A DNA stretch of 64,000 nt from Desulfuromonadales bacterium (lineage in GTDB: Bacteria; Desulfobacterota; Desulfuromonadia; Geobacterales; Pseudopelobacteraceae), in NCBI GenBank assembly GCA_016650295.1, contig JAENWA010000096.1:1-64000 (forward strand), written 5' to 3'. The notes beneath the pieces are model-generated. The model saw only the letters and a program-made list of their open reading frames with translations, did not search any database and was not told where the DNA came from. The translations under genes and the position numbers were made by a program. Below, one piece after another: positions 31,121 through 42,202 of the stretch (positions are counted from its first letter, which is position 1; the number at the start of each line of letters is the position of its first letter).

Positions 31121-31810
31121 CTATGAAGGGCTACTGGGGGAAACGGATCGCAAAACAGAAGACTTGAAGCGCTTTGAATTCAACCTCCGGTTTAATCCCG
31201 GAATCATATAGAACAGCATTCCAAGCAGGGGCAGGAAAATTACCAGCAGCAGCCAGACGGCTTTATTTGAAGGTGTATTGAAATCGCTTCTGACTATATC
31301 CACAATAGTCACTATCCAGACAACAAACAGGGCAAGCCCCAGCACTATCCATATGACTACAAATTTAGCCAGCGATTTCATGGTGCTGTCAAAATTCCTG
31401 TCGTCTATCTGCTGCTGTTGCTTTGTCTCCGCGGCCTGTCGCTGTTGTTCCAGACTGGCCTGGTGATCTGCACTCTTTTGTTCCTGATTGGCCCGGAGAT
31501 CGGTAACCTGTTTCTCCTGATTGGCCTGGTGATCGGTAACCTGTTTCTCCTGATTGGCCTGGTGATCGGCAACCTGTTTCTCCTGATTGGCAGCCAGCAG
31601 AGCCTGCTGATTCTTTCCGACCCTGAGGTGTGTAACCGAAGTCTCGGGCTGCAGTTCGGTTTCTGCAACAGGCTTTTCACGATTCTTTTCAGGCATGGAG
31701 GAAGGATTATCCGAAAAGTTCACCCCGTTTGCATCCTCCCACCTGTATACTTCTGCAGATGCAAGGGAGCTAAGAAACACCAGCATGAATAGAATGACAG
31801 CAGTTTTCAA
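31121..31810 (-). CDS. DUF4124 N-terminus + 11-aa repeat linker + PLDc_N-type membrane segment
   Basis: SAEVYRWEDANGVNFSDNPSSMPEK; repeats (QANQEKQVTDH); C-terminal TM segments WLLLVIFLPLLGMLFYMI. Confidence 0.75.
   Translation of the reverse strand: MKTAVILFMLVFLSSLASAEVYRWEDANGVNFSDNPSSMPEKNREKPVAETELQPETSVTHLRVGKNQQALLAANQEKQVADHQANQEKQVTDHQANQEKQVTDLRANQEQKSADHQASLEQQRQAAETKQQQQIDDRNFDSTMKSLAKFVVIWIVLGLALFVVWIVTIVDIVRSDFNTPSNKAVWLLLVIFLPLLGMLFYMIPGLNRRLNSKRFKSSVLRSVSPSSPS
31483..31600. repeat. 33-bp tandem repeat encoding QANQEKQVTDH
   Basis: Repeated ctgattggcctggtgatcggtaacctgtttct on + strand. Confidence 0.8.
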
Positions 31811-31904: not shown

Positions 31905-32192
31905 CTATTTTTCCTTGAAGGCCTCGCCGGTTTCATGCCCGGACTCTTTGAAGGCCTTGCCGGTCGCTTTACCCGATTTCTTGAAAGCCTTGCCGGTGGC
32001 CTTGCTCGATTTCTTGATAGCCTTGCCGGTGGCTTTGCCCATTTTTTTGACACCTTGTCCGACCTCTTTGCCGCCTTCCTTAATGCTGTTGTCGCCAGTA
32101 TTAATGCTTTCGTCGGCATAGGCGAATGAACCCGCCAGCGACAGCGACAGTAAGACCATAATCGTTCTTGTAAAAATTCTTGTTAACTTCAT
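31905..32192 (-). CDS. Small secreted protein with 11-residue repeats (KATGKAFKKSG)
   Basis: Signal peptide FTRTIMVLLSLSLAGSFAYADE; KATGKAIKKSS/KATGKAFKKSG/KATGKAFKESG/HETGEAFKEK; RBS cggaggtagt. Confidence 0.8.
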   Translation of the reverse strand: MKLTRIFTRTIMVLLSLSLAGSFAYADESINTGDNSIKEGGKEVGQGVKKMGKATGKAIKKSSKATGKAFKKSGKATGKAFKESGHETGEAFKEK

Positions 32193-32236
32193 ACTACCTC
32201 CGTTTACTCTGTTGGTTATTTCATGAACTGTTAATG

Positions 32237-32254
32237 TACAACAAACGTGCCAGG
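32237..32254 (-). promoter_or_regulatory. Putative sigma54 promoter for 31905-32192
   Basis: Minus strand CCTGGCACGTTTGTTGTA. Confidence 0.6.
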
Positions 32255-32368
32255 AATATAATCAGAACCGAGTAGGGCTTACACTCTGATATTGTTGGAT
32301 TATATTGAGTAAAAGTTCAGGAAGTAATGAGGAATCCGTTACAGGCGGCCGCCGCATGTAACAAGACT

Positions 32369-32380
32369 GTCATATGTGGC
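32369..32380. promoter_or_regulatory. Palindromic putative enhancer site GTCATATGTGGC
   Basis: 14-nt stretch GTCATATGTGGCGG identical to the site at 41670. Confidence 0.55.
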
Positions 32381-32578
32381 GGAAAGCGTTGGAGAAAATT
32401 GTTATTCGCGGATGCTGCCTGGTATATGCAATCGTAGTCTGTAGTGATGCAGGCCATACTGCAGGTTGTTATCGCCCGGCGTCTTACTTTTAAATCCGGC
32501 TATGACCATGGACGTAACCTCATCCGTCAATAAAGAAAAGGCCGGTATATCTTACAACTGGTTACCTCAGCGAGGTCC

Positions 32579-32590
32579 GTCACATATGGC
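32579..32590. promoter_or_regulatory. Palindromic putative enhancer site GTCACATATGGC
   Basis: Lies in a ~65-bp block (32575-32639) similar to 41666-41730. Confidence 0.55.
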
Positions 32591-32704
32591 AGTAATGTTA
32601 ACATAACAGATTCCGATAACGGTTTTCCTTTCTTCCCCGTTCGCTCTTTTCACAATTTACCTGCATAATCAAACTGTTACGCTCTCAGTTTCAGCAGGTC
32701 TCCT

Positions 32705-32722
32705 TTGGCATGATAGTTGCGA
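32705..32722 (+). promoter_or_regulatory. Putative sigma54 promoter for 32793-33005
   Basis: TTGGCATGATAGTTGCGA. Confidence 0.65.
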
Positions 32723-32792
32723 TGTACAATACGTTTGGGCGGCTGCGCGCAATTCTGCGCTCAGTTATTGTTCGATATAAAGGAGAATCATC

Positions 32793-33005
32793 ATGAGATA
32801 TTTGATTGTAGTTGCAGCAGCACTGTCGGCGCTGGCTTTGGGCGCATGTAACAAACCTGAGACAGTTTCGCCTTCTACCCCTGTGGTAGTTGTTCCCGGA
32901 CCTCCCGGACCACAAGGTGCCACGGGCGCACCTGCTGAAAAAGGCGCAACCGGCGCAACCGGCGCAACTGGCGCTGAAGGCGCAAAGGGCGAGCAGGGCA
33001 AATAG
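32793..33005 (+). CDS. Short lipoprotein with collagen-like Gly-X-Y repeats
   Basis: Lipobox LALGAC; GPPGPQGATGAPAEKGATGATGATGAEGAKGEQGK*; RBS aaggagaatc. Confidence 0.82.
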   Translation: MRYLIVVAAALSALALGACNKPETVSPSTPVVVVPGPPGPQGATGAPAEKGATGATGATGAEGAKGEQGK

Positions 33006-33462
33006 GGTAGCGGCATGATCGTGGTTATCCCCTGCACCCGATTCGTAGCGCTGATCAGTTTTCATCGGGGGCTGGCCGGGCAGTCCGTGCGGCATCCGGA
33101 GTTATTCACCACATGGCTGGAATATAAAGAGTCGCCCCCGCTATTTATCGAATAGAAGGGGGCGTCCCTCATTTCTGGCAGGGAAAATGATTAATAGGAA
33201 TTTATCGACTAAAGCTCGACACCGATTCCGACCAGACATCTCGCACCATATTGACCTGTTTTTTGACCTCTCCTTCAATCCCCGGAATTCTCCCTCGCCC
33301 GCTTCCACCTCGTAACGCCTTACAAAATCAACAAATTTTCACGGATAAAACCTGCATTTTGCTGCTGTTGTTGATTGCCGCTCATTCATCCTTGGCAATG
33401 CCGGCGTCTCTATACTATAGTCTTTGTGCAGACCGGATCGGGTGAGGTGTCGAGGGAATACC

Positions 33463-35607
33463 ATGGATAATGAAAAAGCCAGACTCGTTTTTGCACGGGC
33501 GAACGAATTCAAGGAGGGAGACCTGCTGGTCGGCGGAACACGCGACGAAGCCGTCAGGATGGATGCAAAGAAGGAGATTGCAGCCCTGAAAATCGGCGAG
33601 ATCGCCAGGCTTGTGCTGGTAGAAGACGCGATCACGGAGGCGCTTTCCCGCTCCGTCAACAGGCAGCTGTTCAATGAAATTGCTCACCTGACGATCAGCG
33701 ACCTCAAGTTGATCCTGACAGGTGCCGCCTGCGCCGTCTGGGTCAGGAAATATTCCGATGGCCTGTCCAGCGAGGCAATCGCGGCGCTGGTCAAGACCAT
33801 GAACAATGACGAGCTTTCACAACTCTCGCGTTCCCTGTTCAATCCCTTGTCGGACAAAGCACAGAGCGGTCCCGTCGTTATCGGTTCCCCACTCCATTTC
33901 GGCAGCCGCATCCAGCCCAACAGCCCCGGTGATTGTGAAGAGGAAATCCTCATGTCAATCCTGGAGGGGTTGGCCTTCGGCTGCGGCGACGTCATCATCG
34001 GGCTCAATCCGGCCAGCGACGATATCGAAACAATCGTCAGGACCGAGAAGCTCCTGCAGAGCGTGGTCGAACGGCTGCAGCTTCCGACCCGTTACTGCGT
34101 CCTTTCCGATCTGGTAAAACAGTCGGCGGCCCGCTCCCGGACAAAGGTTGACGTCGGTTTCCAGAGCCTGGCCGGAACGTCCAGGTCCCTGGTCGGCATG
34201 CTGGGCCTGGATGTTGAAGGGCTGCTGGAACTGGCGCGGGGTTTCGACGGTCTCTATTTTGAAACGGGACAGGGTTCCGAAGTCACCAACGGGTCGGCCG
34301 AAGGCGTTGACATGCTGACGCTGGAGTCGCGCTGTTACGGCCTGGCCAGACATGTACGGCAGCAGTGCAGCGGGAAATGGATGATCGTCAACGACGTGGC
34401 CGGCTTCATCGGCCCGGAGGTCTTCAGGACCGGCCGGCAACTGATGCGGGCCTGCCTGGAAGATACGGTCATGGCCAAGCTGCACGGTATCACCATGGGT
34501 CTGGATGTCTGCTCCACCTTCCATATGGGTATCGATCCGTTCGAGCTTCAGGCCCTGACCGGGCAGATAGTTACAATGGCGGCCCCCGCCTATCTGATGT
34601 CCGTGGCCGGAAACGCCGACCCCATGCTCGGCTATCTTACGACATCCTACCGTCAACACCCGCGCCTCAGGCTGGCGACCAACCGGCAGATCTCAAGCGC
34701 CATGCGGGACAGGCTGATCGTTCTCGGCGTGATCGACTCCGACGGCCCGGCCAGCGGTGCCCCTGAAATCACCGCACTCCTGTATGCACGCTATCTGAAA
34801 CAAGGCGGAGACACGCGGTCAATCGACGGACTCAGGCTGGAAGGCCTCAAGCGGATTGCAGCCCTGCAGGAAAAAGGATGCGACCTGGGCTATGGCCCCG
34901 GTCCGGATAATTGCGACCCGCCGCTGGTATCCGCACGGATTGAAACACTCTACCGGCATGCCAGAATTGCCCTGTATGCCGGGCTTGACCCGGCGGTCAT
35001 CCGGGCCTGCTGTCCGCAGCATATCATTGTTGCGACACATTCGGCCGACCGTGAGGAGTATCTTGCGCATCCGGCATCCGGCGAACTGATCAGCGAAAAG
35101 GATTGCGCAGCCCTGAAAAGGCTCCGTGAGGGCCGCACGACTGCCCCGCAGGTCCGGATCGTCATCTCAGACGGCCTTAACGCGGACGCGGTCAATGAAA
35201 ATCTGCGCGACGTCCTGCCGGGGCTGAGATGGTCGCTGAAGGAAGCAGGATTCCAGGTTAGCGAAACCGATGTGGTTTTACGGAACGGGCGTGTCAGGGC
35301 AGGCTATCATGTGGCGCAGATCACTGAACCTGACATCCTGATTCACCTGATCGGAGAGCGGCCGGGGTCGGGTCTGAACCAGCTTTCGGCCTACATGACC
35401 TACGGAAGAGACCCGTCCGGCAGCTTCCGCTGGAGTCCCGGCATGGACCATTCCTGTACTTCTGCGATCTGCAGCATACACCCCAGAGGAAAAACAGCTG
35501 AATCGGCCATCGTTGATATGCTACAATGCGCCGGACGCATGATAGATCTGAAATGCTCGGGTGTGGCCCTTGGCGACAAGGCCAATACCAGCTCCATGCC
35601 CGGCTGA
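33463..35607 (+). CDS. eutBC: Ethanolamine ammonia-lyase, fused large (EutB) and small (EutC) subunits
   Basis: EutB-like LQPNSPGDC...EGLAFGCGDVIIGLNPASDD...LYFETGQGSEVTNG...GFIGPEVF; continues in frame into EutC-like RIVISDGLNADAVNENL...GERPGSGLNQLSAYMTYG...DHSCTSAICSIHPRG. Confidence 0.92.
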   Translation: MDNEKARLVFARANEFKEGDLLVGGTRDEAVRMDAKKEIAALKIGEIARLVLVEDAITEALSRSVNRQLFNEIAHLTISDLKLILTGAACAVWVRKYSDGLSSEAIAALVKTMNNDELSQLSRSLFNPLSDKAQSGPVVIGSPLHFGSRIQPNSPGDCEEEILMSILEGLAFGCGDVIIGLNPASDDIETIVRTEKLLQSVVERLQLPTRYCVLSDLVKQSAARSRTKVDVGFQSLAGTSRSLVGMLGLDVEGLLELARGFDGLYFETGQGSEVTNGSAEGVDMLTLESRCYGLARHVRQQCSGKWMIVNDVAGFIGPEVFRTGRQLMRACLEDTVMAKLHGITMGLDVCSTFHMGIDPFELQALTGQIVTMAAPAYLMSVAGNADPMLGYLTTSYRQHPRLRLATNRQISSAMRDRLIVLGVIDSDGPASGAPEITALLYARYLKQGGDTRSIDGLRLEGLKRIAALQEKGCDLGYGPGPDNCDPPLVSARIETLYRHARIALYAGLDPAVIRACCPQHIIVATHSADREEYLAHPASGELISEKDCAALKRLREGRTTAPQVRIVISDGLNADAVNENLRDVLPGLRWSLKEAGFQVSETDVVLRNGRVRAGYHVAQITEPDILIHLIGERPGSGLNQLSAYMTYGRDPSGSFRWSPGMDHSCTSAICSIHPRGKTAESAIVDMLQCAGRMIDLKCSGVALGDKANTSSMPG

Positions 35608-41478: not shown

Positions 41479-41669
41479 CACCAACTATCTTCCCAAGAGT
41501 TTTTGGGCTTTGCCTAACGCCTTTTAGGCTTTTCCGGCTATTTTTCTGTCTGCCCTTTCAAAGCTACACCTTATATAACCGTAACATTTTATGTTAGAGA
41601 CGATTCACAGTTTGCATAAACAACTGATATTTTGATCTTTAGAAAAGACTGTAAGAATCAATGCGGTCC

Positions 41670-41681
41670 GTCATATGTGGC
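41670..41681. promoter_or_regulatory. Palindromic putative enhancer site GTCATATGTGGC
   Basis: Same 12-mer as 32369-32380; in ~65-bp block shared with 32575-32639. Confidence 0.55.
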
Positions 41682-41806
41682 GGTTATGTTAAGCATGACA
41701 GATTCCATTGATGGTTTTCCCTTCGCCCCGCACTCCCCAATCGCAGTTCTCGTTTAAATCCCAATGATTCAATACTGTTAGAAAATATTTTCTTTAAACA
41801 CAAGTC

Positions 41807-41824
41807 TTGGCACAACCTATGCTA
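41807..41824 (+). promoter_or_regulatory. Putative sigma54 promoter for 41869/42023 genes
   Basis: TTGGCACAACCTATGCTA. Confidence 0.62.
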
Positions 41825-42022: not shown

Positions 42023-42202
42023 ATGAAATCCAGCATTAAGGACAAGACTGAAGGAACATTTCACGAAGTAAAGGGAAAGGTCAAGGAAGTCGCCGGGAAA
42101 CTGACTGACAATCCGAAGTTGCAGGCTGAGGGTAGTATCGAAAAGAATGCCGGGAAAGTTCAGGAAAAGATCGGTGAGGTCAAGAAAGTTTTGGGGAAGT
42201 AG
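42023..42202 (+). CDS. CsbD family stress-response protein
   Basis: MKSSIKDKTEGTFHEVKGKVKEVAGKLTDNPKLQAEGSIEKNAGKVQEKIGEVKKVLGK; RBS gggaggt. Confidence 0.9.
   Translation: MKSSIKDKTEGTFHEVKGKVKEVAGKLTDNPKLQAEGSIEKNAGKVQEKIGEVKKVLGK

Follow-up and report, generated by a model that had tools for sequence, protein, structure and literature searches.

In this study, we found that the intergenic region at positions 32193-32792 of the window (the whole 64-kb stretch of DNA that was analysed) appears, judged from its sequence, to carry two divergent, enhancer-dependent sigma54 promoters, which would belong to a dispersed regulon of ~35 sites; RpoN dependence, transcription starts and binding have not been shown. 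The pair is a real finding within a larger system, namely a sigma54 enhancer regulon with a near-invariant promoter layout and, probably, a shared family of multi-sensor activators. Taken as a whole, divergent sigma54 promoters, a regulon with a shared enhancer (UAS), one bEBP family and converging sensors make up the explanation that we consider likely to be correct, without binding or expression data at hand. The genome encodes RpoN (PF04552 at contig C105, E=2.7e-64).

Two divergent sigma54-like promoters had been placed in this region by the preliminary description, and both are present at the coordinates claimed. On the forward strand, the -24/-12 promoter TGGCATGATAGTTGCG (32706-32721; TTGGCATGATAGTTGCG from 32705) has a score of 18.4 and is, by a simple consensus score, the top sigma54-like match of the 64-kb window on either strand. 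It is located 121 bp from the centre of a ~65-bp UAS (32562-32632, palindrome core 32579-32590) that scores 62.4 bits (E=7.9e-17) with the UAS model R1, and the IHF-like site AATCAAACTGTTA (32667-32679) matches 9/9 consensus positions and starts 39 bp before the TGGC. The reverse-strand promoter TGGCACGTTTGTTGTA (32237-32252, within CCTGGCACGTTTGTTGTA at 32254-32237; score 16.7) is weaker, with TTGTA and not TTGCN at -12 (GT at -12). Its UAS (32324-32397, reverse strand, palindrome core 32369-32380; R1 47.7 bits, E=3.1e-12) is centred 122 bp away, and the IHF-like site TATCAGAGTGTAA (32279-32291, reverse strand, 8/9 consensus positions) again starts 39 bp before the TGGC. The palindromes GTCATATGTGGC (32369) and GTCACATATGGC (32579) likewise stand where they had been reported, and the earlier distances of ~122.5 and ~123.5 bp from site centre to GG agree within ~1 bp with the 121 (+) and 122 (-) bp determined here to the T of TGGC. 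That description had overlooked the ~65-bp element, the IHF-like sites lying between UAS and promoter, and the additional copy of the UAS at 41657-41726.

Downstream on the forward strand lies a gene for a collagen-like lipoprotein of 70 aa (32793-33005; its match to Pfam Collagen, E=2.1e-5, narrowly misses the curated cut-off), relatives of which are found at UAS sites in loci L059 and L055 and also on contig C9 of the same genome, behind a UAS-linked BON gene. On the reverse strand, an ORF (31905-32192) encodes a secreted 11-residue repeat protein of 95 aa with 31/54 identities at lag 11, for which no Pfam family was reached at its cut-off. Its strict 11-residue periodicity resembles that of desiccation-protective repeat proteins. 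At the sole named relative, L020 of HGW-Deltaproteobacteria-15, no UAS-like sequence was seen by eye in the stretch before the gene, and therefore the UAS link is not universal for this protein. The adjacent gene for a membrane protein with DUF4124 and PLDc_N domains (31121-31810, reverse strand; Pfam) is inferred to be probably part of the same operon as the repeat-protein gene, and relatives of the DUF4124 protein adjoin UAS sites in L070 and L073. Elsewhere in the window, positions 33424-35607 form a single 727-aa ORF in which, judged by eye and without a check by any tool, the large subunit of ethanolamine ammonia-lyase seems to be fused to the small one.

The proposal that the palindromes are sites proved right in that the palindrome GYCAYATRTGRC is real and above chance (18 copies in the 4.07-Mb genome, 1 for the reversed control), yet it understated their extent, as they are only the core of the ~65-bp element. 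In a first pass over 5-kb stretches, a sigma54-like promoter was located ~121 or ~130 bp away at most palindrome sites. Alignment of 17 sites on the palindrome revealed the common element, roughly TCAACG.GGTCCGTCATATATGGCAGTTATGTTAAACaTGACGGATTCCGCTGACGGTTTTCCCTTC. Its TGACGG-type half-sites surround CCGTCATATATGGCAG; they occur as an inverted pair about the centre (CCGTCA / TGGCAG) with an N4 spacer (TATA), with two additional copies at +20 and +33, and conservation is limited to discrete positions. The model R1 was built on the sequence of this ~65-bp UAS alone with the promoter excluded, and the promoter thus provides an independent test. At E<2e-4, R1 detected 35 genomic sites, among them 32562-32632, 32324-32397 and 41657-41726. 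Two exact palindromes (C54:9157 and C98:9586) were without a promoter, had a poor or no score with the full model and were taken as chance. Contig C36 harbors a strong UAS (L007 2477-2547, 59.7 bits) that lacks a sigma54 promoter at the normal spacing.

A sigma54 promoter with a score of at least 16.5 was present 112-139 bp downstream in 54/56 sites not used for R1, and in 20/2043 control windows (1%) taken at other offsets. This genome-wide scan supports the earlier idea of sigma54 promoters and enhancer palindromes that match each other and keep a constant distance to them. Overall, 70/73 sites reached the score, and the -24 GG and -12 GC were nearly invariant. The spacing between UAS and promoter was 120-123 bp in 63 of the 70 passing promoters, with five others at 129-132 and single promoters at 118 and 113; at a further site, L059, the promoter is found at 103. 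Since the outliers at 103, 113 and 129-132 are shifted by close to one or two turns of the helix, their spacing hints at phase dependence, albeit on small numbers. The IHF-like sequence AATCARNNNNTTR starts 39 bp before the TGGC in 47/70 promoters and within 38-40 bp in 54/70. The third UAS of the window (41657-41726, forward strand, palindrome core 41670-41681; R1 65.5 bits, E=9.0e-18) is located upstream of a csbD gene (42023-42202, forward strand; Pfam CsbD E=8.9e-19), and its promoter TGGCACAACCTATGCT (41808-41823, forward strand; score 17.7) lies 132 bp from the UAS centre. This site (41657-41823) and those in L018, L010 and L051 form a second promoter class with a spacing of 129-132, a TGGCACAAYCTATGC core and mostly no good IHF match.

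In the same genome and its relatives, the first genes downstream of the UAS encode CsbD (8) and BON (5) proteins, the commonest families, as well as DUF3309, LTXXQ, OMP beta-barrel, DUF4124, collagen-like, Cu/Zn-SOD, CHRD, PRC-barrel, ScdA/hemerythrin, VTT/DedA, BrkB, PAP2 and polysaccharide deacetylase proteins. The choice of the downstream ORF was heuristic and single gene assignments may be wrong. These gene families alone, without induction data, suggest an envelope and general-stress regulon. Within the family, 56/76 genomes had R1 sites at E<=0.1, with between 0 and 45 in each genome; at E<=1e-6, such sites were detected in 64/141 genomes of the order and 89/277 of the class, where 35/82 genera searched possess the UAS. 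When 394 genomes sampled across the phylum were searched, R1 matched just two from outside the class, which bounds the false-positive rate.

Sigma54 promoters require a bEBP. The top candidate for the activator is an unnamed bEBP family with an AAA+ domain and an FhlA-like HTH, for which binding data are lacking. PF00158 (Sigma54_activat AAA+) and PF02954 (HTH_8) are present in both its PAS- and REC-type members, and no NCBIfam equivalog was reached, the best model being FhlA (NF011958) with 401.6 bits, below the cut-off of 830. A bEBP gene is located at or near the edge of a UAS cluster in genomes G065, G066 and G008, and at most of 33 bEBP loci examined a UAS was found within ~1 kb, often 35-250 bp past the bEBP stop codon. 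The window's genome possesses four close copies, on contigs C65, C120, C107 and C9, of which those on C107 and C9 are cut by the contig ends; contigs C9, C107 and C65 terminate inside bEBP genes. The sigma54-contact loop reads GAFTGA in G065, G066 and G008 and GAFTGS in the copies of the window's genome, one of which, on C120, shows divergence in its HTH; both features weigh against the overall explanation. UAS sites and close bEBPs tend to be found together within the family (rho=0.79; 39/6/2/29, p=1.3e-12) and in 201 genomes of other families in the class (38/5/7/151, p=2.3e-28), in both cases with shared ancestry ignored, and their presence is patchy within genera. G022 and G032, which encode only bEBPs of ~62% identity, have zero UAS sites. 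A few genomes possess the bEBP without UAS sites. Conversely, a close bEBP is absent in six family genomes and five others with UAS sites (e.g., G041, G033, G063), and a laxer search agreed. Assembly gaps at near-identical paralogues are a plausible reason for these exceptions, one that has not been shown.

The AAA+-HTH half was found behind different sensors. It carries a PAS front end behind a CheB-CheR-PAS protein on contig C65 and in G065, and a REC front end behind PAS-containing hybrid kinases on contig C120 and in G045 and G002. An ice-binding-like protein (PF11999; L127 790-2874, contig C65) that has four Big_5 domains adjoins the CheB-CheR/bEBP operon. In a tree built from the AAA+-HTH parts of bEBP genes (loci L070, L090-L093, L099-L126 and L130-L133), copies from the same genome tend to cluster despite their different sensors: three copies from G002, two with REC and one with PAS, group together at 100/98, and the PAS and REC copies of G069 pair at 99/95. 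The C120 copy stands apart from the three other copies of its genome. Front ends were called by simple motifs and four tree rows remained without assignment. The tree needs 8 changes for the REC label and 7 for the PAS label, that is, the labels are somewhat clustered, less than under a single origin. Homogenisation of the output half by gene conversion, or swapping of the sensors, would produce such a pattern, and either process, inferred here, suggests a common output. The pattern suggests that many inputs converge on one enhancer, an inference made without binding data.

Convergence would fail if each paralogue of this bEBP family had its own subset of sites, as the two spacing classes (120-123, and 129-132 mostly without a good IHF match) and the diverged C120 HTH might indicate. 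This remains doubtful, since a single UAS consensus covers the sites and the HTHs are almost the same whatever the front end, with a tendency to cluster by genome. The UAS and the sigma54 promoters could also be real while another DNA-binding protein recognizes the 65-bp element and the bEBP merely co-travels. Eleven UAS-bearing genomes lack a close bEBP and no binding of the bEBP to the UAS has been demonstrated; nonetheless, we regard this as improbable in view of the strong co-occurrence across many families, the UAS near most bEBP genes examined, the lack of sites in G022 and G032 where bEBPs are only ~62% identical, and the general requirement for a bEBP at such promoters.

With regard to function, polysaccharide deacetylase, OMP beta-barrels and collagen-like lipoproteins among the UAS-linked genes, and the ice-binding/Big_5 protein beside the CheB-CheR/bEBP operon of the window's genome, would also suit a surface, matrix or biofilm regulon. 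We consider this unlikely in place of general stress, because CsbD and BON, the families met most often downstream of the UAS, are general-stress families, and Cu/Zn-SOD and ScdA/hemerythrin are present too. That the 65-bp element is no enhancer at all and instead a dispersed repeat or an RNA leader can hardly be entertained: the element is long and reaches dozens of copies in some genomes, however its conserved positions are discrete and it lies upstream of a sigma54 promoter at a fixed distance. No Rfam match was obtained at the element, and the RNA-leader reading was rejected.

Under the preferred reading of a shared-enhancer sigma54 regulon, members of a single bEBP family, with a PAS or REC sensor, an AAA+ domain and an FhlA-like Fis-type HTH, would bind the UAS as oligomers, and IHF would bend the DNA between UAS and promoter so that the AAA+ ring could touch RNA polymerase-sigma54 and open the promoter by ATP hydrolysis. 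As several paralogous bEBPs share the HTH, CheB-CheR-PAS/PAS and hybrid kinase/REC signals may all lead to the same set of envelope-protective and general-stress proteins; this mechanism is inferred. Potentially, the whole class runs a general stress response by sigma54 and not by a dedicated sigma factor, with paralogous activators that swap sensors while ATPase and DNA-binding domains are homogenised in each genome, so that whichever sensor is triggered, the response runs through the same ~65-bp enhancer at ~10-40 promoters. We put this forward tentatively, its chances being somewhat short of even. The system would offer a probable regulator and regulon for many small secreted and membrane proteins without a known role, and a natural setting in which to test how a single enhancer is shared among paralogous activators whose sensors differ.

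No published description of the motif or the regulator was found in the openly licensed literature, which is no proof of novelty. A sigma54 study in Desulfovibrio described the FlrA/DVU2894-type motif yGTCA-N6-TGACr (PMC4641369), which belongs to another bEBP. Both systems have half-sites of the GTCA/TGAC or TGGC kind upstream of a sigma54 promoter, whereas the spacer here is N4 and not N6 and further half-sites follow downstream, and the motif was rejected as a match; no flagellar genes were seen among the targets examined. In Geobacter sulfurreducens, a deltaproteobacterium with a large sigma54 regulon, over-expression of RpoN raised stress genes, and in the main text of that study we found neither such a UAS nor a stress bEBP (PMC2725144). 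NifA/NtrC-type sigma54 promoters share with the present ones a UAS, an IHF site between UAS and -24/-12 and an AAA+ activator. In contrast to them, the UAS here is different and much longer, the spacing is almost invariant and the genes concern stress and envelope rather than nitrogen; the NCBIfam NifA and NtrC models were not reached by the bEBP. FhlA/HyfR-type bEBPs come closest over AAA+ and HTH, where FhlA is the best NCBIfam match, however the score stays far below the cut-off, the front end is PAS or REC, and no formate-hydrogenlyase targets were seen. In general, large general-stress regulons are credited to sigma70-family factors, and genes of the CsbD, BON and PRC type also belong to the RpoS, SigB and EcfG regulons. 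Those regulons use alternative sigma factors, whereas the regulon proposed here would use sigma54 and an enhancer. It thus represents a concrete alternative to sigma70-family control, with a readable promoter code of enhancer, IHF-like site and promoter in near-fixed register.
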